This document shows positions 11,637-25,607 of a stretch of DNA of 36,551 bases, piece by piece (positions within the stretch are counted from its first letter, which is position 1; every line of letters starts with the position of its first letter). A program made the position numbers and the translations under genes. The notes beneath the pieces are model-generated. The model was not told where the DNA came from, did not search any database, and saw only the letters and a list, made by a program, of their open reading frames with translations. Source of the DNA: Candidatus Pacearchaeota archaeon (GTDB lineage: Archaea; Nanobdellota; Nanobdellia; Pacearchaeales; GW2011-AR1); the NCBI GenBank assembly GCA_017609885.1, contig JAFCDB010000003.1, positions 1 to 36,551 of the forward strand, in the 5' to 3' direction.

Positions 11637-12470
11637 TTAACTCATCAAATCATCAATTGGAGATTTAATTTTTTTAATTTCTTCTTGAGAAACGTGTGCA
11701 TATAATTCTGTAGTAGAGATTGAACTGTGACCTAACAATACCTGAATGTATCTTAAATCAACACCATTTTCCAAAAGGTGAGTTGCGAAACTATGACGCA
11801 AAGTATGTGGATGGATTGATTTTTGTATTCCTGATTTTCCTGCGATTTTTTGGACGATTTTTTGAATGTTTCTTGTTGACAAATTTCCATTTGGACCTGA
11901 AAAAAGATATTCTTGGTTTAGCTCATTTTGTTTTTTTACTTGTTTTTCAAGGGATTTGTTTAGGAATTCTGGGATATTGAAGATTCTGTCTTTGCGTCCT
12001 TTTGCCTGTCTGACAAATCCGATTTTTTCGTTGAATTTTAGGTCGTTTGTTTTAAGGTTTGTGAGTTCTGAGACTCGCAAGCCACAAGAGTAAAGTAGGG
12101 AAATCATAAGTTTGCTTTTTTTTGTTTGACAATTTTTTAATAAAATCTTTATTTCGTCTTTTGTTAAAACTGTTGGAATTCTTTTTTCTCTTTTTGGGCG
12201 TTTTATTGTTATTGTTAGATCTTTTTTTAGGATGTTTGTGAAGGAATATTTTATTGAGGCGAGGAAGAGGATTACTGATATTGCTGCGCTGTCTGTGAGT
12301 TTTTCTGACATGTAATATTTTATGTCGTCTTCTGAAATTTTTTCTGGAGATTTTTTTGTGAAGTTTAGGAGATTTTGATTGCATCGAATGTAATTTTTTA
12401 TTGTGTATGGGGAAGATTTTGAGATTTTTAATTCTATTTCAAGTTTTTTTAGGAATTCTTGGTTGTTCAT
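11637..12470 (-). CDS. xerA: Tyrosine recombinase, XerA-like
   Basis: 'SLLYSCGLRVSELTNL', 'HPHTLRHSFATHLLENGVDLRYIQVLLGHSSISTTELYAHVS' (R...HxxR...Y). Confidence 0.9.
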   Translation of the reverse strand: MNNQEFLKKLEIELKISKSSPYTIKNYIRCNQNLLNFTKKSPEKISEDDIKYYMSEKLTDSAAISVILFLASIKYSFTNILKKDLTITIKRPKREKRIPTVLTKDEIKILLKNCQTKKSKLMISLLYSCGLRVSELTNLKTNDLKFNEKIGFVRQAKGRKDRIFNIPEFLNKSLEKQVKKQNELNQEYLFSGPNGNLSTRNIQKIVQKIAGKSGIQKSIHPHTLRHSFATHLLENGVDLRYIQVLLGHSSISTTELYAHVSQEEIKKIKSPIDDLMS

Positions 12471-13132
12471 TTTAGTTTTTTAGATAGTTGTTTAAACAGC
12501 TGTTTGTTTTCTTTATATAGAATGGTTTGCATTCCTAATTTTTTTGCAGGGAGGATGTTCCATTTTTGGTTGTCGATAAACAAGCAGTTTTTCGCAGGGA
12601 CGTTAAGCTTTTTTAAGCAAAGTTTGTAGATTTTTGGATTTGGTTTGCGCATTCCGACGTCGCAGGAGACGACAACAGCGTCGAATTTTTTTGTGAGTTT
12701 TGGTTTTATTAATGCTTTTTTTGAAAGATGCCATTGGTCTGAGAGAATTGCTATTTTGTAACCTTGTTTTTTTAATTTTAGGGCTAACTTGAATAAGGGC
12801 TTATTTTCTTTGAATTGTTTTTTGTAAAGTTTGATTGCAAGTCTTTCGAATTTTTTTTCTGAGATATTAACATTTTTTGAGATTGTTTTTATGACTTTTT
12901 TTTCTGTTAATTCTCCTGTTATGGATTTTGCGTATGTTGTGTCGATTGCGTCGAACCATTGGTCTAGTGAAATTCCTAATTTTTTTGAGATTGAGTTGTG
13001 GAATCCTAAAAGTTTGTGAAGATGTTTTGGGTGGGAGGAATATTTTCCTAGTTCAAGGACTCCGCCAATGTCAAAGATTATTGCTTTGATTTTTCTTTCC
13101 TCTTTTTTCACTTTCTTTTCCCCTTTTTTCAT
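12467..13132 (-). CDS. HAD-family hydrolase
   Basis: 'IIFDIGGVLELG', 'KIAILSDQW', 'MRKPNPKIYKLCLKKLNVPAKNCLFIDNQKWNILPAKKLGM' (catalytic motif I second Asp replaced). Confidence 0.85.
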   Translation of the reverse strand: MKKGEKKVKKEERKIKAIIFDIGGVLELGKYSSHPKHLHKLLGFHNSISKKLGISLDQWFDAIDTTYAKSITGELTEKKVIKTISKNVNISEKKFERLAIKLYKKQFKENKPLFKLALKLKKQGYKIAILSDQWHLSKKALIKPKLTKKFDAVVVSCDVGMRKPNPKIYKLCLKKLNVPAKNCLFIDNQKWNILPAKKLGMQTILYKENKQLFKQLSKKLK

Positions 13133-14588: not shown

Positions 14589-14796
14589 TTTATCAACGGT
14601 AAACAAAAAACAAACAACAGCAAACAGCTGTTTATAGATGTTGTTTGCTGTTTAAACAGCTGTTTATTTCAAACAACAGGGTGTTTATAGGTTTTTTTTT
14701 GAGTGTTTTGACACATTCTTAGACACATTCTTAGACAGATAATTTAAGGATTTTAAGAATTTCTTGTTAAAAAATTAGTGATTTGTCGACGGCAAA
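14589..14796. promoter_or_regulatory. Multi-repeat control region upstream of the 14845 wHTH gene
   Basis: AAACAGCTGTTT at 14622 and 14654 with GCTGTTTAAACAGC at 14647; GACACATTCTTA at 14710 and 14722; TTTATCAACGGTAAA at 14589 and TTTGTCGACGGCAAA at 14782. Confidence 0.7.
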
Positions 14797-14844: not shown

Positions 14845-15459
14845 ATGTTTGGTTGGTTTGGAAGAAAAAAAGAGATAGAATTGATAAAAGAAGAGGTTCA
14901 TGATTCTTTTGGAAAAGTTAAAGAAGATATAGACAAGCTTGGACAATGGGTTGGACATTTCAATAATAAACATGATTCACATGAAAACGAGTTTTTAGGG
15001 ATTAAAAAGGATTTGTCGTTGGTAAAAAAAGAGATTGAAGAATTAAAAGATATGATTTCTATATTTGGAAATGACATGAGTAAACAGATGTTCAAAACAA
15101 ACAAACAGCTGTTTAAGAAACAAACAGCTGTTGATGCTGTTCAAACAGGTGTGCAAACAGCTGTTCAAACAGTGAATTTTGGTGGTTTTTCGAATTTGAG
15201 TGTAACTGAGCGTGCAATTGTTTGGGTGTTAGCAAATAGTGAATTGAAATTAAGTTATGAAGATCTAGCATCTATGTTAGGAAAAACAACTTCAACTATT
15301 CGTGGGCAAATAAATAGGATACAACATAAAAGTGAAGGGTTAGTAGAAATGTATGTTGAAAAAAATGGAAAGAAAAGGATTTATATGTCTGAAGAAATAA
15401 AAGAAAAAATACTAAAAAATGTGAAAGTGAAAGTCAGAGAAAAAAGAGAGGAAGATTAA
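14845..15459 (+). CDS. Coiled-coil + repeat linker + C-terminal winged-helix protein
   Basis: N-term heptad-like region, linker KQLFKKQTAVDAVQTGVQTAVQTV, C-term 'LSVTERAIVWVLANSELKLSYEDLASMLGKTTSTIRGQINRI' HTH. Confidence 0.7.
   Translation: MFGWFGRKKEIELIKEEVHDSFGKVKEDIDKLGQWVGHFNNKHDSHENEFLGIKKDLSLVKKEIEELKDMISIFGNDMSKQMFKTNKQLFKKQTAVDAVQTGVQTAVQTVNFGGFSNLSVTERAIVWVLANSELKLSYEDLASMLGKTTSTIRGQINRIQHKSEGLVEMYVEKNGKKRIYMSEEIKEKILKNVKVKVREKREED
15103..15173 (+). repeat. AAACAGCTGTT-type repeats within wHTH gene
   Basis: Copies at 15103 (AAACAGCTGTTT), 15122, 15143 (AAACAGGTGT), 15155, partial 15168. Confidence 0.85.
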
Positions 15460-15718
15460 GTAAAAATCATTTGAAAAAGGAAGGAAAGTGAGAGTTAAAT
15501 TAATAAAAATTTAGTGGAAAAGTGATAAAAGAGATGTTGTGAAAAGGTAAAAGAGAGAGTTAAAGTAAAAAGGAGAATTAAATTGTAGTTTGTAAAAAAT
15601 AAAAAAGAAAGTAAAAAATAAAATTTTGTAAAGGAAGTAGTTAGTAATATCTAAGAAAAAATAAAGAAAAATAAGAGTTTTCTATAGTTGTAAAAGTTAT
15701 TCTGTTAACCGAAAATAA

Positions 15719-16519
15719 TTATAGTTCCCGAAGAGATAATAAAGTGTTTAAGGTTGCTAATCTCTTTAAACTATCTGAAATTCTAAGGAGAATGCGTTTA
15801 TTATTGATTTTTTCTTTTATTAATGGAAAACCTTTGTTAATAATTCTTTTAATGTAATCTCTAATTGAACTTTCCGAAAGATTTAATTGTTGGGATAAAA
15901 GAGAATAATCAACGAGAGTTCCTTGTTCTTCAAATTGATATATTGATGATAAAACCAACATTTCTTGATTAGTTAAACGTTTGATTTTTAATCTAAGATC
16001 TTTTTTTATATTATCTAATTGGTTTAATATAATTGAAGGATTTGGCTGTTGATTTTGAAGTTGTTGATTTTGAGGCGAATTTTGACTAATTTGAGGTGTT
16101 TTTGGTGTTTTGACCCCATAATTTCCTGTCGAAGTGTCTGTCGAAGTGTCTGTCTGTCTGTCTGTCGAAGAATGTGTCGAAGCCCCATGGTTTCCAGTGG
16201 AAAGGGGTATATTTGAAGGTTTAAGACTTTCTAAAGGAACATTATGTGTCGAAGAATGTGTCGAATTTTTGAGATGTGTCGAATTTATGTGTCGAAGTGT
16301 CGAAGTTTCAGGATTATGTGTCGAAGAATGTGTCGAATTTTGAATTTCGGGGATTTTTTGAGACTTAGAGAGGTTTTTTGTTAAAAGATCATTTACTTTT
16401 ACTAATTCGTAGAGAGAATTTTGTATTTCGTGAAGTTCTTTTTTTATAATTTCAAATTCTAAATTTAACTGATTAATATCTGATTTAACTTTTTGAAATG
16501 CCTCTTTTATTTGATCCAT
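15719..16519 (-). CDS. Coiled-coil + Ser/Thr/His repeat linker + C-terminal winged-helix protein
   Basis: Linker STHSSTHNPETSTLRHINSTHLKNSTHSSTHN...; C-term 'LTNQEMLVLSSIYQFEEQGTLVDYSLLSQQLNLSESSIRDYIKRI' HTH. Confidence 0.7.
   Translation of the reverse strand: MDQIKEAFQKVKSDINQLNLEFEIIKKELHEIQNSLYELVKVNDLLTKNLSKSQKIPEIQNSTHSSTHNPETSTLRHINSTHLKNSTHSSTHNVPLESLKPSNIPLSTGNHGASTHSSTDRQTDTSTDTSTGNYGVKTPKTPQISQNSPQNQQLQNQQPNPSIILNQLDNIKKDLRLKIKRLTNQEMLVLSSIYQFEEQGTLVDYSLLSQQLNLSESSIRDYIKRIINKGFPLIKEKINNKRILLRISDSLKRLATLNTLLSLREL
16127..16337 (-). repeat. About 11 copies of TTCGACA(CAT) word, with a GACA tetranucleotide run
   Basis: TGTCGAA (+ strand) repeated across the linker-coding region; 5 x TGTC at 16147-16166. 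Confidence 0.85.
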
Positions 16520-16569: not shown

Positions 16570-16842
16570 TTATTTGTAATTTTGAGAGTAGGCTTGATGG
16601 GTTTTATTTGATAATCTCCAACGAGTTCTTTTTAGATAATTATCTCCTAAGGAATTTTTGTGAATTGAGATGATTAGATTTTTATTTTTTAGTTCTTCTA
16701 GAAGAGATTTGGTGAATTCATGATCTCGGATTATTTCATTAGCAATTTGTGATGTGAAGAGGGGATTTGGAAATTTGTCGAAGAGAACTGAGAGAATTTG
16801 CTCTGAGATTCTTTGCTTTTTTTTCTCTGATAGTTTTGACAT
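16570..16842 (-). CDS. Hypothetical HTH-like protein, 90 aa
   Basis: 'ISEQILSVLFDKFPNPLFTSQIANEIIRDHEFTKSLLEELKNKNLI' resembles a winged helix. Confidence 0.5.
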   Translation of the reverse strand: MSKLSEKKKQRISEQILSVLFDKFPNPLFTSQIANEIIRDHEFTKSLLEELKNKNLIISIHKNSLGDNYLKRTRWRLSNKTHQAYSQNYK

Positions 16843-16879
16843 GAAATTATATAGAAGAAGATTTTATATATTTTTGGAA

Positions 16880-17287
16880 TTATTCTTGTTTTGTCACCCT
16901 TGGGACAGGTATATGGAATGGGATACCTAAATCTTCTTCGAGCTGAAGAGAGCGAATGTTGCATCTTGAAAGAATTACATTCATTAGATAAATTCTAATG
17001 TCTTCGGGAATTTTTTTGTCTTTCCATTTTTCTTTTACTTCTTTTAAATTATCTTCTTTATCGAAGAGAATTAAGATTGCTCCTTGAAAATTTAGTTTTG
17101 CAAAATCAGGTTCATAATTTATTTCAAATACATAATCAAATTTCATTAAGTCTTTGTCTTTAAAAATATCTGATTTTTGATCTTCGATATTTTTTATTTC
17201 AATGTTTGTGTTTACTTTGAGATCTTTCGTTATTTCTTTTTTCTTTTCTGTTGAAATTTTTGTGAAATTAAATCCGACGAGTTTCAT
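16880..17287 (-). CDS. Hypothetical protein, 135 aa
   Basis: Intact ORF '...MNVILSRCNIRSLQLEEDLGIPFHIPVPRV'; family not assigned. Confidence 0.55.
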   Translation of the reverse strand: MKLVGFNFTKISTEKKKEITKDLKVNTNIEIKNIEDQKSDIFKDKDLMKFDYVFEINYEPDFAKLNFQGAILILFDKEDNLKEVKEKWKDKKIPEDIRIYLMNVILSRCNIRSLQLEEDLGIPFHIPVPRVTKQE

Positions 17288-17349
17288 TTTAAATTATCTT
17301 ATTACTCCTTTATTTTGATAAATTGAAATTAAGGTATTTAAAGATTTAG

Positions 17350-17610
17350 TTACATGAGGTCTTCCTCTGAAACAACTACAAAGTCGCCGATTGCCATTAT
17401 TGAATTGTGTGGAACTAAGAGTTCACCGACGCTGGTTCGCTCTAAATTAAGATTTTGAGTATAAGAAGTGGGATTTTTTATGACAATTTGAATTAGTTCT
17501 CCAGAACGAGTTTCAAAAGTTATGTCGTTGATAGTGCCAAGTCTCTTGCCTTCTTTAGTTACAACCATTTTCCCAAGAATTTCTTTCAGGGGTCTTTTTT
17601 CTTCTGACAT
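17350..17610 (-). CDS. PRC-barrel domain protein
   Basis: 'LKEILGKMVVTKEGKRLGTINDITFETRSGELIQIVI...LLVPHNSIMAIGDFVVV'. Confidence 0.82.
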   Translation of the reverse strand: MSEEKRPLKEILGKMVVTKEGKRLGTINDITFETRSGELIQIVIKNPTSYTQNLNLERTSVGELLVPHNSIMAIGDFVVVSEEDLM

Positions 17611-17639: not shown

Positions 17640-18395
17640 CTTTTCTGTGATTTTGTCTATATATAAGTTATTAAATTAAAGATATTTTGGAAATTTAGTT
17701 GTTAATTTTATTTTAGAGTTTAATTATATTTATTTAAGAATTTAATTATTTGTTTGAGAGTGTAGGAATTTAAATTGATTTATTTTTAAGTGATTATGCG
17801 AACTTTATTTTGTAATTTTATTAATTTTCATGTTTTCTTGATTATATGAACTTCTATTTATGAAATCTTTTGTTTTGAGTGACCCTATGATTTCGTTTGG
17901 AAAAGTTTATAAAAGAAGTAAGAATTTAATTTTTTATTTTTATTTATAAATATTTATATTATATATAATATATATTATAAAATATATATTATATTATATT
18001 ATATTAATGTGTTTTATTTTAATTATTTGAAAATAATTAAAATTTTTATAATTTATTATATTTAATTGTGTTAAATTAATCCTTAATTGTATTAAATTGA
18101 TTTTTAGCCATGTTTTTACAAATTTAAATTGATTTTTAGTTATTCTTTGGAAATTATATTTTTATATTCTCAAAAGTAGAGAGAATTTTTGAATTTATGA
18201 ATTTCCAAACGAAATCAAGGTGTAGGGTTTTTTAAATTTTTAAAATGAATTTTTTTTGATTTGAGGAATTTCCTAATAAAATTTTTTTGAGATTTATTTT
18301 TTCCAAATGAAATTAAGGTGTAGTTAAATACTATGCAAAAGGTTATACAAAAGTTTATAAAAAATGTTTTTTATTTTTTTATATTGAATTGAGAG
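17640..18395. other. Predicted chromosomal replication origin (oriC) region
   Basis: ~750 bp AT-rich non-coding DNA next to orc1/cdc6, with ORB-like repeats at 17882-17904 (inverted), 18202-18228 and 18299-18323. Confidence 0.75.
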
Positions 18396-19616
18396 GTGAA
18401 AATGGAAGAAGTTGGAAAAAAGATTGATAAGATTTTTGATTCGTTTATGGAGAATAATTTGTTTAAGGATAAGTTTGTTTTGCAGGCGAGTTACACTCCT
18501 GAGACAATCCCTCATCGTGATGAGCAGATTGAGCAGATAGCTTTGATACTTGCTCCTGTTCTTCGAGGAGAGAGGACGAGCAATTTATTTGTTTATGGGA
18601 AGACAGGGAGTGGAAAAACACTTTCAGTGCAGTGTGTTAGAAATGAACTTTTGAAAAGAAATAATTTGGAAAAGAATAATTTAGTTATTGAGTATATTAA
18701 TTGCAAACTGAAGAAAGTTAGTGATACAGAATATCGGATTTTGGCAGAACTGATAAAAAAACTTGGAGGTAGCGTCCCTGCGACTGGACTTCCAACAGAT
18801 CAGGTTTATAATAAATTTATAGAACTTATTGATAATGAGAAGAAATTGATTGTTATAATTTTTGATGAGATTGACCATGCTGTTAATAAAATTTCTGATA
18901 ATTTTTTGTATAATCTGACGAGGTTGAATTCTGAACTTTCAAAAAGCCAGATTTGTATTGTGGGAATTTCAAATAATCTGACTTTTTTAGATGATTTAGA
19001 TCCGAGGGTAAAGAGTTCTTTAAGTGAAGAAGAGTTGGTTTTTCCGCCGTATGGTGCTTTGCAGTTGCGAGATATTTTAAAGGAGAGAGCTGATAAAGCA
19101 TTTAATGAAGGGGTTTTGGATGAAGGTGTTATTTCAAAATGCGCTGCTTTTGCAGCTCGAGAACATGGAGATGCACGCAGAGCATTGGATTTGTTGAGGA
19201 TTGCAGGGGAAATTGCAGAAAGAGATAATATGAAAAAAGTTTCAGAGGCAAATATTGATTTGGCAAATGAGAAAATTGAAAAAGATAAGATTTTAGATAT
19301 TGTAAAAACAGAGCCGAAGCAATTTCAGCTTGTTCTTCTTTCGATAATTGATCTTGTTCAGAAAAATAAATTAGAGGAGATTTTTACTGGAGATGTTTAT
19401 AATACCTATCAGATTTTATGCGAGAAGACAAGAACTGATATTTTGACGCAGAGAAGGGTTTCAGATATTTTGTCAGAGTTTGATATGATGGGGCTGATAA
19501 ATTCGAGTGTTATTTCAAAAGGGCGCCAAGGCAGAACAAGGAGAATTCGACTTTCAGTTCCTAAACAACTTTTTGGAAAAGTCAGGGATATTTTGAACGA
19601 CTCACTTAATATTTAA
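18396..19616 (+). CDS. cdc6: Orc1/Cdc6 replication initiator
   Basis: 'YTPETIPHRDEQIEQIALIL...LFVYGKTGSGKT', 'VIIFDEIDHA', C-term WH; likely start ATG 18402. Confidence 0.93.
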   Translation: MKMEEVGKKIDKIFDSFMENNLFKDKFVLQASYTPETIPHRDEQIEQIALILAPVLRGERTSNLFVYGKTGSGKTLSVQCVRNELLKRNNLEKNNLVIEYINCKLKKVSDTEYRILAELIKKLGGSVPATGLPTDQVYNKFIELIDNEKKLIVIIFDEIDHAVNKISDNFLYNLTRLNSELSKSQICIVGISNNLTFLDDLDPRVKSSLSEEELVFPPYGALQLRDILKERADKAFNEGVLDEGVISKCAAFAAREHGDARRALDLLRIAGEIAERDNMKKVSEANIDLANEKIEKDKILDIVKTEPKQFQLVLLSIIDLVQKNKLEEIFTGDVYNTYQILCEKTRTDILTQRRVSDILSEFDMMGLINSSVISKGRQGRTRRIRLSVPKQLFGKVRDILNDSLNI

Positions 19617-19617
19617 A

Positions 19618-21177
19618 ATGAGGAATGAGCTATTGAGTTTTTGTATGGAGAAGGGTATCTTATTGGATAAAGAGGTTTTGAATGTTTTTAGTGAATTAAA
19701 TAATTTTGAGCTTGCGAAGAATTTGATTGAGAGGATAAATTATAGATATAAACAGAAAATTATTGATAGGAATTTTTTTGTTGACAAGGAAAAATCTCAT
19801 GATTTGCTTTCAAATTATAAGAATGTTGAGCATAAGATTGTGGAGGAATTTTTTTTAAAGCTTGGAATTGAGGTTAAAGAAAATGATTTTGAGATTTCAA
19901 ATAAATTTGTCGAGCCTTTGAAAGGAGATTTGAATTTTAAAGTTTTTCAAAATGAGCCGAAGAAAATTGAGGTTAAGGATTTTGTTAGGAATTTTAAAAA
20001 TAGGTTTAGGGTTTTGCAGGGAATTTTGCAGGAGAGGGCTGAACTTGAGAATTTGGTTTCGATAAACCGGCTTGAGCAGGGAAGACAGGCTTCGATTATT
20101 GCACTGGTTTATGATAAGAGAATTACAAAAAATGGGAATGTTTTTCTTGAAGTTGAAGATTTAACTGGCAGGGTAACTGCAATTGTGAATAAAGATAAGG
20201 AGGAGCTTTTTAAAAAGTGCGGCGAGATTTTGTTAGATGAAGTTATTGCGCTGAAATGTTCGTCAGGGGGAGAGTTAGTTTTTGTTAATGATATTATTTT
20301 TCCAGATATTCAGATTTTTGAAAAAAAGAAATCAAAAGTTGAGGAGATAGCTGCTTTTATTTCTGATATTCATGTTGGAAGCAATAAGTTTTTGGAGAAA
20401 AATTTTTTGAAATTTATTTCTTGGTTAAATGGGGATTTTGGCGGGGATGAGCAAAAGAAGCAGGCATTGAAAATAAAATATCTTTTTATTACTGGGGATA
20501 ATGTTGATGGGGTGGGAGTTTTTCCTGGGCAGGAAAGTGAGCTGGCGATTAAGGATATTCGAGAGCAATATAAAAAATTAGCGGAATTGCTTTCGAAGAT
20601 TAGGGAAGATGTTAAAATTATAATTTGCCCTGGGCAGCACGACGCTGTTCGGCTTGCTGAACCACAACCTGTGATTGGAGAGTATTATGCAGAACCGCTT
20701 TATTATTTGAAAAATATTTTGTTTGTTACAAATCCTTCGATTGTTGAAATTGGTTCGCAGGTAAGATTTAAAGTTTTGATGTATCATGGGGCAAGTATGC
20801 ATGGAATAATAAATAATATTGAGGAGCTGAGATTAGGTAAGGGGCATGATTCTCCGACAGATGTTGTTAAGTATATGTTGAAGAAACGACATTTGGCGCC
20901 GACACATTCGCTTGTTACTTATACGCCTTTGGAAGAAGAAGATCCTTTATTGATTAAAGATATTCCGGATATTGTTGCAACTGGGGATTTGCATAGGCCA
21001 GAAGTTGCAGATTATAATGGGGTTTTAGCAATTGCATCGAGTTGCTGGCAAAGCAGGACTCCGTTTGAGGAAAAGGTTGGAAATAATCCTGACCCTTGTA
21101 AGGTGCCAATTTTTAATTTGAAGACGAGGGAAGTTAAGATTTTGGATTTTTCAGGAGGGGAAGATGATAGTGATTGA
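19618..21177 (+). CDS. polB (DP1): DNA polymerase D small subunit (DP1)
   Basis: OB region plus phosphoesterase motifs 'AAFISDIHVGSN', 'LFITGDNVDG', 'IICPGQHDAVR', 'MYHGASMHG', 'VATGDLHRPEV'. Confidence 0.92.
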   Translation: MRNELLSFCMEKGILLDKEVLNVFSELNNFELAKNLIERINYRYKQKIIDRNFFVDKEKSHDLLSNYKNVEHKIVEEFFLKLGIEVKENDFEISNKFVEPLKGDLNFKVFQNEPKKIEVKDFVRNFKNRFRVLQGILQERAELENLVSINRLEQGRQASIIALVYDKRITKNGNVFLEVEDLTGRVTAIVNKDKEELFKKCGEILLDEVIALKCSSGGELVFVNDIIFPDIQIFEKKKSKVEEIAAFISDIHVGSNKFLEKNFLKFISWLNGDFGGDEQKKQALKIKYLFITGDNVDGVGVFPGQESELAIKDIREQYKKLAELLSKIREDVKIIICPGQHDAVRLAEPQPVIGEYYAEPLYYLKNILFVTNPSIVEIGSQVRFKVLMYHGASMHGIINNIEELRLGKGHDSPTDVVKYMLKKRHLAPTHSLVTYTPLEEEDPLLIKDIPDIVATGDLHRPEVADYNGVLAIASSCWQSRTPFEEKVGNNPDPCKVPIFNLKTREVKILDFSGGEDDSD

Positions 21178-22156
21178 TAAGGTTTATGGGGAAGAAGAAA
21201 TAAAAGAGAATGTTTTGATTGAGTTGATTAATTCCAGACCTATTCAGAGATTGAAAGGAATTGCGCAGTTGGGTATGCCTGAAAAATATTATCATTTGAA
21301 AAATGGTTTTAGTCGATATGAACATTCTGTTGGAGTTTTGATTTTGTTGCGACGACTTGGTACTGATTTAAAGGAACAAGTTGCTGGATTGTTGCATGAT
21401 GTGTCACATACTGCTTTTTCGCATGTTATGGATTGGATTGTTGGAGATCCGACAAAAGAAGATTACCAAGATAAGAAACTTTTAGAGATTATGGGGAATT
21501 CTGAACTTTCGGAAATTTTGGAAAGGCATGGATATGATTATATTGAAATTGCGAGTCATGAAAATTTTAGTTTGCTTGAGCAGGATGCTCCTAGGATTTG
21601 TGCAGATAGGATTGATTATTTGTTAAGGGAGTTAGCGATGGATGGGAATAGTGATGAGATTGAAATTATTGTTGATGGTCTTTGCAATATTGGTGGGAGA
21701 ATTGTTTTTAATTCTGTAGAAAGTGGAAGGGTTTTTTCTCAAAATTATGTGAAGTGTCAGAGAGAGAATTGGGGCGGAATTCAGGCAAGGAGTCGTTATT
21801 ATTTTTTGTCTTTAATTTTGAGAAAGGCACTTGATTTGGGAATTGTGACGATAGATGATTTTCATGATAAGGGAGATATAGAGATAATTAATATGGTTAT
21901 TGGAAGTGGGAATGGTGAATTAATTTCTCGATTGGAATTGTTGGAAAATAATTTTAGGGTTTGGGAGAGTGATAAAGAGGGGATTGAAATTAAAAAGAAA
22001 TTTAGGTGGGTGGATCCAGAGATTTTTTTTGAAGAAAATGTAAAAAAACTTTCTGAAATTGATTTTGAATATAGAAAGATATTGGAAGAGGAGAAAATAA
22101 ATTCAAGTAGATTAGTTAGAGTTAAAATTGAGGAATTTGAAAATGAACACAACTGA
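21164..22156 (+). CDS. HD-domain phosphohydrolase (SAMHD1/dGTPase-like)
   Basis: 'RLKGIAQLGMPEKYYHLKNGFSRYEHSVGVLILLRRLG...VAGLLHDVSHTAFSHVMD'; overlaps both neighbours. Confidence 0.85.
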   Translation: MIVIDKVYGEEEIKENVLIELINSRPIQRLKGIAQLGMPEKYYHLKNGFSRYEHSVGVLILLRRLGTDLKEQVAGLLHDVSHTAFSHVMDWIVGDPTKEDYQDKKLLEIMGNSELSEILERHGYDYIEIASHENFSLLEQDAPRICADRIDYLLRELAMDGNSDEIEIIVDGLCNIGGRIVFNSVESGRVFSQNYVKCQRENWGGIQARSRYYFLSLILRKALDLGIVTIDDFHDKGDIEIINMVIGSGNGELISRLELLENNFRVWESDKEGIEIKKKFRWVDPEIFFEENVKKLSEIDFEYRKILEEEKINSSRLVRVKIEEFENEHN

Positions 22157-25100
22157 ATATTTTGAAGAGATTGAAAAACAAATAAAGGAGAATTATAAAG
22201 TTGCTGAATTGGCAAGAGAAAAAGGTATGGATCCTGTTGGGAAAGTTGAGGTTCCTTTGGCGCATAATTTAGCTGAGAAAGTTGTTGGACTTGTATCTAC
22301 GATTTATCCTCAGGTTTTGAATTGCGGGATTAGTGAGAGGATTGGGGAGTTGGAGAGGGAGTATGGGTTGTTAGATGTTGCTGTGTGTTTGAAAATTGCT
22401 GAGGAAGTTTCGCAGGAACGATTTTGCAAGTTTGAGAATAAGTTGCAGGCAATTGAAGCAGGGATAAGGGTTGGTTTTGCATATACAACTTTGGGAGTTG
22501 TTTCAAGTCCAATTGAGGGATTTACTTTTTTAAAATTGGGAAAGACTGCAAAAGGAGAGGATTATTTTATGCCGTATTTTTCAGGACCGATTCGAAGTGC
22601 AGGAACTACTGCAAGTTGTGTTGGGTTGTTTATTATTGATTATCTTAGGGAAAAATTTGGATATGCAAAGTATGATGCAACTGAAAATGAAATTAAAAGA
22701 ACTAGGACAGAGTTGTTTGATTTTCACGAGAGGATTACAAATTTGCAGTACTGCCCTACAGAAGAAGAGATAGAGTTTATTGCGAGTAATTTGCCTGTGC
22801 AGGTTGCTGGGGAGGCAAGTGAGAAATTAGAAGTTTCAAATTATAAAGATTTGCCGAGGGTGGATACAAATTTTTTGAGAAGCGGGTTTTGTTTGATTTT
22901 AGGAGAAGGGGTTGCGCAAAAAGCTCCGAAGGCATTGCGAATTTTGAAGGGGTTGCGGGAAAAAGGATTTAAACTTAGTGATTGGGATTGGCTGGAAAAA
23001 TATTGTGAACTTCATGAAAAACAGACATTAGGTAAAAGTAAAGAGGCTGTTGCAACTTATATGAAGGATTTGGTTGCAGGAAGGCCGATTTTTGGGCATC
23101 CGTCGAGGAGCGGGGGATTTAGATTTAGATATGGAAGGTCGCGAGTGGCGGGTTTTTCAGCTGTTAGTATTCATCCTGCGACAATGGCTATTTCTGATAG
23201 TTTTATTGCAACAGGAACACAATTGAAAATTGAAAAGCCAACAAAGGGTTGTGTTACAACTGTGTGTGATAGTGTTGACGGGCCGATTGTTAAATTAAGA
23301 AATGGGGGTGTTAAGAAACTGCAGGATTTTGAGGAAGCAAAGACTTTGTATAAAGAAGTAGAAGAGATAATTTATTTTGGAGATGTTTTATTTCCTTTTG
23401 GGGATTTAGCAAATAGAAATGCTGATTTAATTAAACCAGGTTATGTTGAGGAGTGGTGGAATCTTGAATTGGAAAAACTTGGCGGAAAAGTAGAAGATTG
23501 TTTTAATGTTGATTTTGAAAAAGCTGTTGAAATATCTGAAAAATATAAAGTTTCCTTGCATCCAAAATATATTTATTTTTGGAATCAAATTGGACGGGAG
23601 GAATTTTTAGAATTATTGAGATGGACTTCTTATGGGCGGATAAATAAAAAATTGATTTTGCCATATAGCCCTCGGGAAAAGGAGAAATTTGCAAAAGGCA
23701 AGAGGGCTTTGGAGTTGCTTGGAGTGGAGCATGAAATTGGAGTAGAGAATGTTATTTTTTCTGAAGTTGATTCTAAATCTTTGTTTGTTAATTTGGGATT
23801 GGATGAAAATTTGATTGAAAGAGATGATTATTTTATTGAAAAGGAGTTGAATGAAATTGCAGAAAGAGTTATTGAGAAGAAGCAGGATGTTTTGGAAATT
23901 GTGGATGGGCTTTCGAGATTTGTTATTAGAAATAAGGCAGGAGAGTTTATTGGGACGAGAATGGGGCGGCCTGAAAAAGCAAAGCTTCGGAAGTTGACTG
24001 GGAGTCCGCATGTTTTGTTTCCAATTGGTGAAGAGGGAGGGAGATTCAGGAGTGTGCAGGAGGCAGTGGAAAGAGGATTCGTTAATGCAGAGTTTCCAAT
24101 TTATTTTTGCGAAGATTGCAAGAATGAAACAATTTATAGAATTTGCGAGAAATGCGGAAAAAAAACGAAAAAACAATTTTATTCTTTTAGCAAACAGGAA
24201 ATTGTTAATGAGGAAAAATCTGGTGAAAGCATTAATCGGGGATTTTCAAGACGTAAAATTTTAATTAAAGATTATTTTGAAAATGCGCGTAAGATTTTGA
24301 AAATGACAAATGGGGAGATGCCTGAAATGGTTAAAGGGGTGAGGGGGACAAGTTCGAAAGAGCATGATTTTGAGCATTTGTCAAAAGGGATTTTGAGAGC
24401 TAAGTTTAATTTAAATGTAAATAAAGACGGGACTGTTCGGTATGATATGACTGAACTTCCTATTACACATTTTAAACCTTTTGAAATAGGGATTTCTGTT
24501 GAGAAACTTTTGGAATTAGGATATGTGGAAGACATTCATGGAAAGGAGTTGAAAAGTGAGGGGCAGATTTTGGAACTGAAGCCGCATGATATTATCCTTC
24601 CTTCAAATAATGAAGCAGGAGATGAAAAAGCAGATGATGTTTTTTTTAATTTAGCGAATTTTATTGACGAGTTGTTAGATAAGTTTTATGGTTTGCCAAG
24701 ATTTTATAATTTGGAGAAAAAAGAGGATTTGATTGGGCATTTGGCTGTTTGCATGGCGCCGCACAATTGTGCTGGAGTTATTTCTAGGATTATTGGTTTT
24801 TCGAAGACGCAAGGGATTTTTGCAAGTCCGTTTTTGCATGCTGCTGTCCGTAGGGATTGTGACGGCGATGAATTAGCTTCTATGCTTTTGTTAGATGTTT
24901 TGATAAATTTTTCAAGAAAATATCTTCCTTCGCATCGTGGAGGAACGCAGGATGCGCCGTTGGTTTTAAATGGAAGAATTGTTGCTGGGGAGGTGGATGA
25001 TCAGATTTTAGATTTTGAACTTGTTGATAAATATCCTTTGGAGTTGTACGAGAAGGCAGAGAAAATGATGCATAGTTCTGAGGTTGAAATTGAAATGGTG

Positions 25101-25607
25101 AAACAGAGGGTGAATAATAATTTGGACCCTTTTGTTAATATTGGTTTTACACATGACACTGAGGATTTTAATTCAGGTGTGCTTTGCAGTTCTTACAAAA
25201 TGCTGCCGACAATGCAGGAGAAAGTTGCGAGTGAGATGGAGTTTGTTAAGAAAATGAGGTGTGTTGATGCTTCTGATGTTGCGCGGTTGATTATTGAGAG
25301 GCATTTTATTCGGGATATTCGAGGGAATTTGAGGAAGTTTTCAATGCAGGGTTTTAGGTGTGTTAAGTGCAATGCAAAATATCGCAGGCCGCCTCTTGTA
25401 GGCAAGTGTTTAAAATGTAATGGAAAAATAATTTTTACAATTAGCGAGGGAGGGATTGTGAAGTATTTAGAACCTGCACTGGATTTGGCAAATAATTATG
25501 ATGTTCCTGTTTATGTTAAACAGAATTTGGAGTTGACAAAGAAATATATTGAGTCGATATTTGGAAGAGAGGAGACACGGCAGAGTGATTTGCGGGAGTG
25601 GTTTTAG
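22143..25607 (+). CDS. polC (DP2): DNA polymerase D large subunit (DP2)
   Basis: 'MNTTEYFEEIEKQIKENYKVAELAREKGMDP', 'LHAAVRRDCDGDELASMLLLD', zinc-ribbon C-terminus; start trimmed from 22128; no intein apparent. Confidence 0.95.
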   Translation: MNTTEYFEEIEKQIKENYKVAELAREKGMDPVGKVEVPLAHNLAEKVVGLVSTIYPQVLNCGISERIGELEREYGLLDVAVCLKIAEEVSQERFCKFENKLQAIEAGIRVGFAYTTLGVVSSPIEGFTFLKLGKTAKGEDYFMPYFSGPIRSAGTTASCVGLFIIDYLREKFGYAKYDATENEIKRTRTELFDFHERITNLQYCPTEEEIEFIASNLPVQVAGEASEKLEVSNYKDLPRVDTNFLRSGFCLILGEGVAQKAPKALRILKGLREKGFKLSDWDWLEKYCELHEKQTLGKSKEAVATYMKDLVAGRPIFGHPSRSGGFRFRYGRSRVAGFSAVSIHPATMAISDSFIATGTQLKIEKPTKGCVTTVCDSVDGPIVKLRNGGVKKLQDFEEAKTLYKEVEEIIYFGDVLFPFGDLANRNADLIKPGYVEEWWNLELEKLGGKVEDCFNVDFEKAVEISEKYKVSLHPKYIYFWNQIGREEFLELLRWTSYGRINKKLILPYSPREKEKFAKGKRALELLGVEHEIGVENVIFSEVDSKSLFVNLGLDENLIERDDYFIEKELNEIAERVIEKKQDVLEIVDGLSRFVIRNKAGEFIGTRMGRPEKAKLRKLTGSPHVLFPIGEEGGRFRSVQEAVERGFVNAEFPIYFCEDCKNETIYRICEKCGKKTKKQFYSFSKQEIVNEEKSGESINRGFSRRKILIKDYFENARKILKMTNGEMPEMVKGVRGTSSKEHDFEHLSKGILRAKFNLNVNKDGTVRYDMTELPITHFKPFEIGISVEKLLELGYVEDIHGKELKSEGQILELKPHDIILPSNNEAGDEKADDVFFNLANFIDELLDKFYGLPRFYNLEKKEDLIGHLAVCMAPHNCAGVISRIIGFSKTQGIFASPFLHAAVRRDCDGDELASMLLLDVLINFSRKYLPSHRGGTQDAPLVLNGRIVAGEVDDQILDFELVDKYPLELYEKAEKMMHSSEVEIEMVKQRVNNNLDPFVNIGFTHDTEDFNSGVLCSSYKMLPTMQEKVASEMEFVKKMRCVDASDVARLIIERHFIRDIRGNLRKFSMQGFRCVKCNAKYRRPPLVGKCLKCNGKIIFTISEGGIVKYLEPALDLANNYDVPVYVKQNLELTKKYIESIFGREETRQSDLREWF

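Follow-up and report, generated by a model that had tools for sequence, protein, structure and literature searches.

A candidate replication-origin element within the coding sequence of a winged-helix gene in a Pacearchaeota-like genome

The window (the whole stretch of 36,551 nucleotides analysed here) carries dense short repeats inside a winged-helix gene, designated gene B. We conclude, with moderate confidence, that these repeats belong to an element of a replication origin that is woven into the coding sequence of that gene. That they constitute a cis element at the level of DNA is close to certain, and the element would probably act in initiation or its control. Its putative core is an origin recognition box (ORB) with a G-string that leads without a gap into a strand-specific array of CA-led words of 4 and sometimes 3 bases; additional arrays, found beyond the ORB on its opposite side, within the linker of the neighboring gene A and upstream of gene A, would complete the element.

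Gene B (15719-16519, minus strand) encodes 266 aa, with a coiled coil (residues 2-53), a disordered linker (about 60-153) and a winged helix (161-265). Gene A (14845-15459, plus strand), its convergent neighbor, encodes 204 aa, with a coiled coil (4-78), a disordered linker (78-112) and a winged helix (120-197). In the predicted structures of both proteins, pLDDT in the linkers was mostly below 60. Single-protein searches recovered homologues of gene B in 44/55 relatives and of gene A in 45/55; matches to gene B that occupied two rows were halves of one gene, except for one weak extra match in G025. Protein fold searches returned generic MarR/ArsR-like winged helices only, and a sequence search of solved structures returned coiled coils and generic helix-turn-helix proteins. 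The DnaD_N domain scored 24.7 bits on protein B, against a cut-off of 27.

ORBs in the reading frame of gene B

The most conserved piece of the gene B linker, S-x-G-N-x-G-V, is encoded by TTTCCANNGGAAAYNNNGGGGTT, an archaeal ORB that agrees with the common ORB TCCA[CG]T[TG]GAAA[TC][GA]AAGGGGT as given in PMC4164010. In the window, the main ORB (16183-16203, minus strand) is read in frame as S-T-G-N-H-G, shows 0 mismatches to the pattern TTTCCASTGGAAAYNNNGGGG, and is the sole exact match in the genome of 750,051 bases. A second, degenerate ORB (16114-16134, minus strand) lies 69 bp away and points in the same direction, with 3 mismatches to the strict pattern and 1 to the relaxed pattern. At 3 or fewer mismatches, TTTCCASTGGAAAYNNNGGGG is expected 0.05 times per window; at 1 or fewer, the genome contains two ORBs, both in the gene B linker.

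Exact ORBs numbered 46 in 37/55 relatives, compared with 0 for the reversed pattern. Gene B contained 34 of them, five were located just before orc1, and the remaining seven were in G051 and G053, neither of which has a gene B match; the ORBs of G053 are intergenic. The same pattern was examined in a named set of 81 loci (80 loci plus the window); because these loci were fetched by gene A, the set was not selected for the ORB. Gene B carried an exact ORB in 67/81 loci and an ORB with at most 1 mismatch in 79/81. One further ORB, in a gene B cut by a contig end, raised the count to 80/81, and the remaining gene B (L217) is cut before the ORB. Only 4 exact ORBs fell outside gene B in the 1.30 Mb of the named set, one of them being the gene B cut by the contig end. 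The ORBs at gene B were single or direct, and usually there was one strong ORB with no cluster. An inverted ORB facing that of gene B was found upstream of gene A in 5/80 loci with gene A (at 2 or fewer mismatches).

Codon choice within the ORB was nearly fixed. The serine codon was TCC in 75/76 genes (6% background), and GGA (76/76 vs 47%), GGG (76/76 vs 21%) and GTT (70/70 vs 59%) likewise exceeded background. In 5/81 genes, ORBs occurred in two frames within one gene B; in L222 (11241-11303), identical 20-base ORBs lie 43 bp apart in different frames. L185, L230, L231 and L234 also have a second ORB in another frame, 43 bp from the main one.

Distant homologues of gene B were collected from 28 genomes, comprising all matches outside the window's order (E up to 4.8e-22). 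At a threshold of 1 mismatch (2 mismatches were allowed in one reading of the distant arrays), an ORB was present in 26/28 of these across the phylum, and in 4/26 it was read in another frame (VPQE..GS or like, not S.GN.GV). There was no gene B match in 71/157 phylum genomes. Among the weaker matches, 8 loci from other families of the phylum (L278-L285) were examined, and these homologues, of about 190 aa, had neither an ORB nor a long linker. This small set suggests that the linker and the ORB may occur as a unit.

The array behind the ORB and the repeated words of the locus

The sequence-only reading of this DNA had pointed to a fivefold TGTC run at 16147-16166. The run is present there and, read on the minus strand as (GACA)5, was identified by repeat scan and array comparison as the window's version of a CANN array behind the ORB; what had been described as a GACA microsatellite is the CANN track. 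The array starts right after the ORB G-string and is built of CA-led words, most having 4 bases and some being the triplets CAA or CAT. Most gene B ORBs run into such an array. Its words vary by lineage: that of the window has CAGA, and others have CAAA, CATT, CAAT, CACT, CACG or a mixture. At the protein level, the arrays yield unrelated peptides (TDRQ, NKQT, HSFI, NQSI, RTHA). A CA-to-CA spacing of 4 made up 57% of spacings in 79 genes and 53% in 26 distant ones, compared with 14% and 17% in Markov shuffles and with 24% and 21% when codons were redrawn; the distant genes counted here exclude L247-L249, which are of the same order as the window. Behind ORBs before orc1, the value was 5% (1/21 spacings, ORBs with fewer than 60 bases behind them being dropped), and no CANN track was found at these ORBs, nor at ORBs upstream of gene A or at those of G053. 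Moreover, runs of at least four 4-base units numbered 52 in the 81 gene Bs vs 6 in 1.25 Mb elsewhere. The CANN form was not found in 3/26 distant arrays (L264, L274 and L275), which carry other repeats. In L266, L269, L273 and L276, arrays of about 10 bases (CAA-CAATCTT or CAA-CAAT-CAT), and not pure 4-base units, follow the ORB.

A second repeated word, TTCGACA, had been reported in about 11 copies, and exactly 11 were counted in 16127-16337, all on the minus strand. The whole window contains 13, against 2.9 expected on both strands, and all 9 close TTCGACA pairs of the genome are at the gene B locus (reversed-pattern control, 2). Four copies, interleaved with the GACA run, lie between the two ORBs (16127-16181, minus strand), and seven are upstream of the ORB in the sense of the gene (16247-16337, minus strand). 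Ten copies read S-T; the copy at 16290-16296 is in another frame (TCG ACA CTT CGA CAC ATA, STLRHI), just as had been noticed. The accompanying suggestion that the word is kept as DNA across frames was borne out as well, in that TTCGACA is a DNA-level unit whose spelling changes in both frames together by lineage. Among 27 genes with mostly TTCGACA in frame, the off-frame copy was TTCGACA in 10 and TCCAACA in 0; among 40 genes with mostly TCCAACA in frame, it was TCCAACA in 11 and TTCGACA in 1. Because the sequences are related, these counts over genomes do not represent independent events. TTCGACA is one lineage's spelling of the gene B linker word.

The dependence of the repeats on DNA was also measured by a cross-frame test, in which the protein was kept, synonymous codons were redrawn 200 times, and 8-mers repeated across frames were counted. 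In the window's gene B, 60 cross-frame 8-mers were observed vs 8.6 expected. Across 81 orthologues of gene B, there were 3298 pairs vs 744 expected, and 64/81 genes beat all 200 redraws. Gene A gave 1985 pairs vs 832 expected, and the Orc1 control gave 1030 vs 853, with 1/46 beating all redraws. The repeats are at the DNA level and not the protein level, because their codons do not drift as those of protein-serving repeats could.

The word scan and cross-frame test also revealed an array in the gene A linker (15103-15172, plus strand), where one word, AAACAGCTGTT / CAAACAGGTGTG, occurs in two frames (KQLF, QTAV); in general form, the gene A word is AAACAGSTGTT, which gives KQLF/KQVF in one frame and QTAV/QTGV in another. 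Word counts located a non-coding array upstream of gene A (14600-14740, plus strand) composed of AAACAGCTGTT and a gene-B-like word, GACACATTCTTAGACACATTCTT. A third word, AAAGTGAGAGTT (15485-15496, plus strand), is found again in relatives, both between genes A and B and at the gene A 3' end. When words were counted by place and composition in the loci having both genes and a gap of <1500 bp (80/81), AAAGTGAG was found 131 times in the A-B gap (67/80 loci) and 98 times in gene A (64/80 loci), with 233 copies on the plus strand and 0 on the minus strand. By position, AAACAGCTGTT clusters within gene A and upstream of it, AAAGTGAG between the two genes and where gene A ends, and TTCGACA or TCCAACA within gene B. 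The variant of the gene B word agreed weakly with the word upstream of gene A (rho 0.30, p 0.007; Fisher tests, p 0.06 and 0.75). In G008, no other 1.5-kb interval of a 511-kb contig is as dense in repeated words as the A-B locus.

The orc1 neighborhood

Gene B lies 1.9 kb from an orc1/cdc6 initiator gene (18402-19616, plus strand), which was identified by TIGR02928 (E 3.9e-127) and by Cdc6_C and Cdc6_lid above cut-off. Across 45 loci, orc1 started a median of 1.75 kb from gene B, and another locus had the opposite orientation. In the distant genomes, the main orc1 was on gene B's contig in 22/28, always within 33 kb, and in the other 6 it was on other contigs. Directly before orc1, inspection by eye suggested an AT-rich region (17883-18320) flanked by weak ORB-like sequences (about 17883-17904, minus strand; 18202-18222 and 18300-18320, plus strand). 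In the relatives, 17 ORBs with one mismatch fall in the 700 bp preceding orc1, and mean AT there is 80%. Because this more ordinary origin, with its AT-rich stretch and weak ORBs, precedes orc1, the ORB of gene B may not itself be the start site.

Composition skew was also examined. In the single 511-kb contig of G008, the cumulative GC-skew minimum is at 220.6 kb and the gene A-B pair at 312-313 kb, and no sign change was found between the flanks of 63 and 53 loci (+0.09 left, +0.21 right); neither analysis singled out an origin. Between gene B and orc1 (16570-17610, minus strand) are three small genes, encoding a weak winged helix, an unmatched protein and a PRC-barrel protein. Both DNA polymerase D subunits follow orc1 (19618-25607), with an HD-domain gene between them.

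Interpretation and relation to known systems

On the preferred reading, Orc1/Cdc6 would bind the ORB, as its consensus and the linkage to orc1 suggest. The CANN track beside it would provide a polar lattice on which an initiator, or the winged-helix protein itself, could assemble, and this assembly might open the DNA or position MCM. The disordered linkers would tolerate whatever the DNA must spell, and the disordered middle of protein B appears to have been shaped by the needs of DNA across a large group of tiny archaea. It is possible, at somewhat less than an even chance, that ORB-Gstring-(CANN)n is an undescribed, phylum-wide archaeal origin module set in the frame of a winged-helix gene, a counterpart in layout of the bacterial box-plus-trios, with the linker written by the replicator. 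A specific role of the CANN track in opening or assembly is, on these sequence comparisons, slightly more tentative.

The same elements could instead be regulatory, the strong gene B ORB and arrays titrating Orc1/Cdc6, or allowing Orc1 and the winged-helix proteins to regulate genes A and B, with initiation in the AT-rich stretch before orc1. The weak ORBs there, the arrays that also lie upstream of gene A, and the precedent of Haloarcula hispanica, in which an ORB-rich region by cdc6E is described as negatively controlling oriC2, likely by titration (PMC3936714), all fit such a role. However, gene B usually has one strong ORB and not a cluster, and titration or promoter control leaves both the CANN array and its in-frame location unexplained; we regard regulation without initiation as unlikely, albeit with an appreciable chance. 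Segregation is improbable. Two coiled-coil winged-helix proteins with arrays in their own genes near an origin could recognize the arrays as centromere-like sites, and the pNOB8 plasmid centromere-binding protein 4rs8 is among the tied fold matches (Z 9.6, rmsd 3.1, 77 aligned), but many other generic winged helices reach a similar Z, and the ORB, the most conserved element, would be left unexplained.

Two further explanations concern the coding sequence itself. A flexible linker selected as protein, with the DNA likeness a by-product, would account for the predicted disorder and for the one frame shared by most ORBs (78/79 genes), but it is contradicted by the fixed synonymous sites and the cross-frame repeats, as well as by ORBs in two frames and by the unrelated peptides of distant homologues; it is very improbable. 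The sequence-only reading had proposed a phase-variation switch through slippage of the 4-base unit, as a 4-base tandem run within coding sequence might suggest. This proposal was not supported, and we give it hardly any weight: the frame is open in all 81 gene Bs (two of them cut by contig ends) despite a longest 4-base run of 7 to 41 bases, and the array is tied to the ORB. Across the phylum, arrays of other 4-base words take the same position immediately after an ORB, a recurrence that a contingency repeat does not explain.

Compared with archaeal ORB-type origins, the candidate element shares the ORB consensus with its G-string, the linkage to orc1/cdc6 and AT-rich DNA nearby, but here the strong ORB sits within a conserved gene and leads on into a CANN array. 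The bacterial basal unwinding system (DnaA-boxes, spacer, DnaA-trios) and the DnaD recognition element, as described in PMC8287927 and PMC10201434, likewise place a double-strand initiator box beside a polar track of short-period repeats. The likeness is of layout only, since the initiator differs, the period is 4 with CA and not 3 with GAT, and the track lies in coding DNA; a DnaA box with GAT trinucleotides was not found at gene B, where an ORB and 4-base CANN words stand instead. The negative regulator oriC2D of H. hispanica also has extra ORBs near cdc6 and away from the origin proper, although the description in PMC3936714 gives 11 ORBs in a 722-bp intergenic region, as opposed to the one or two found here, which are intragenic and accompanied by an array. 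The ucm/UBP element of Sulfolobus origins, as described in PMC12141716, is also a second origin motif bound by a non-Orc1 protein, but ucm sits in the unwinding region with an ORB on either side, and the likeness is one of description.

The open-access literature, outside which most subscription journals lie, contained little on DPANN/Pacearchaeota origins, on ORBs in coding DNA or on ORBs with tetranucleotide repeats. The present analysis supplies a precise origin-element candidate for many genomes and a candidate archaeal opening element that is testable. The published origin finder, as described in PMC4164010, considers intergenic DNA only, and with the ORB within a gene, intergenic-only finders would miss such sites. 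On a long evolutionary time scale, a single stretch of DNA has served as a gene and, probably, as a replicator, and the protein has given way to the demands of the DNA.

Several minor features were also observed. The 3' end of gene B (15701-15721) has a palindrome-like sequence, TATTCTGTTAACCGAAAATA, and an exact palindrome, TATTCGTTATAACGAATA, occurs once in the 511-kb contig of G008, at the position of the gene B 3' end. The gene A word AAACAGCTGTT is also present at 12494-12505, immediately upstream of a gene for a tyrosine recombinase (11637-12470; Phage_integrase, E 1.7e-46), and this copy is perhaps a further target of protein A.
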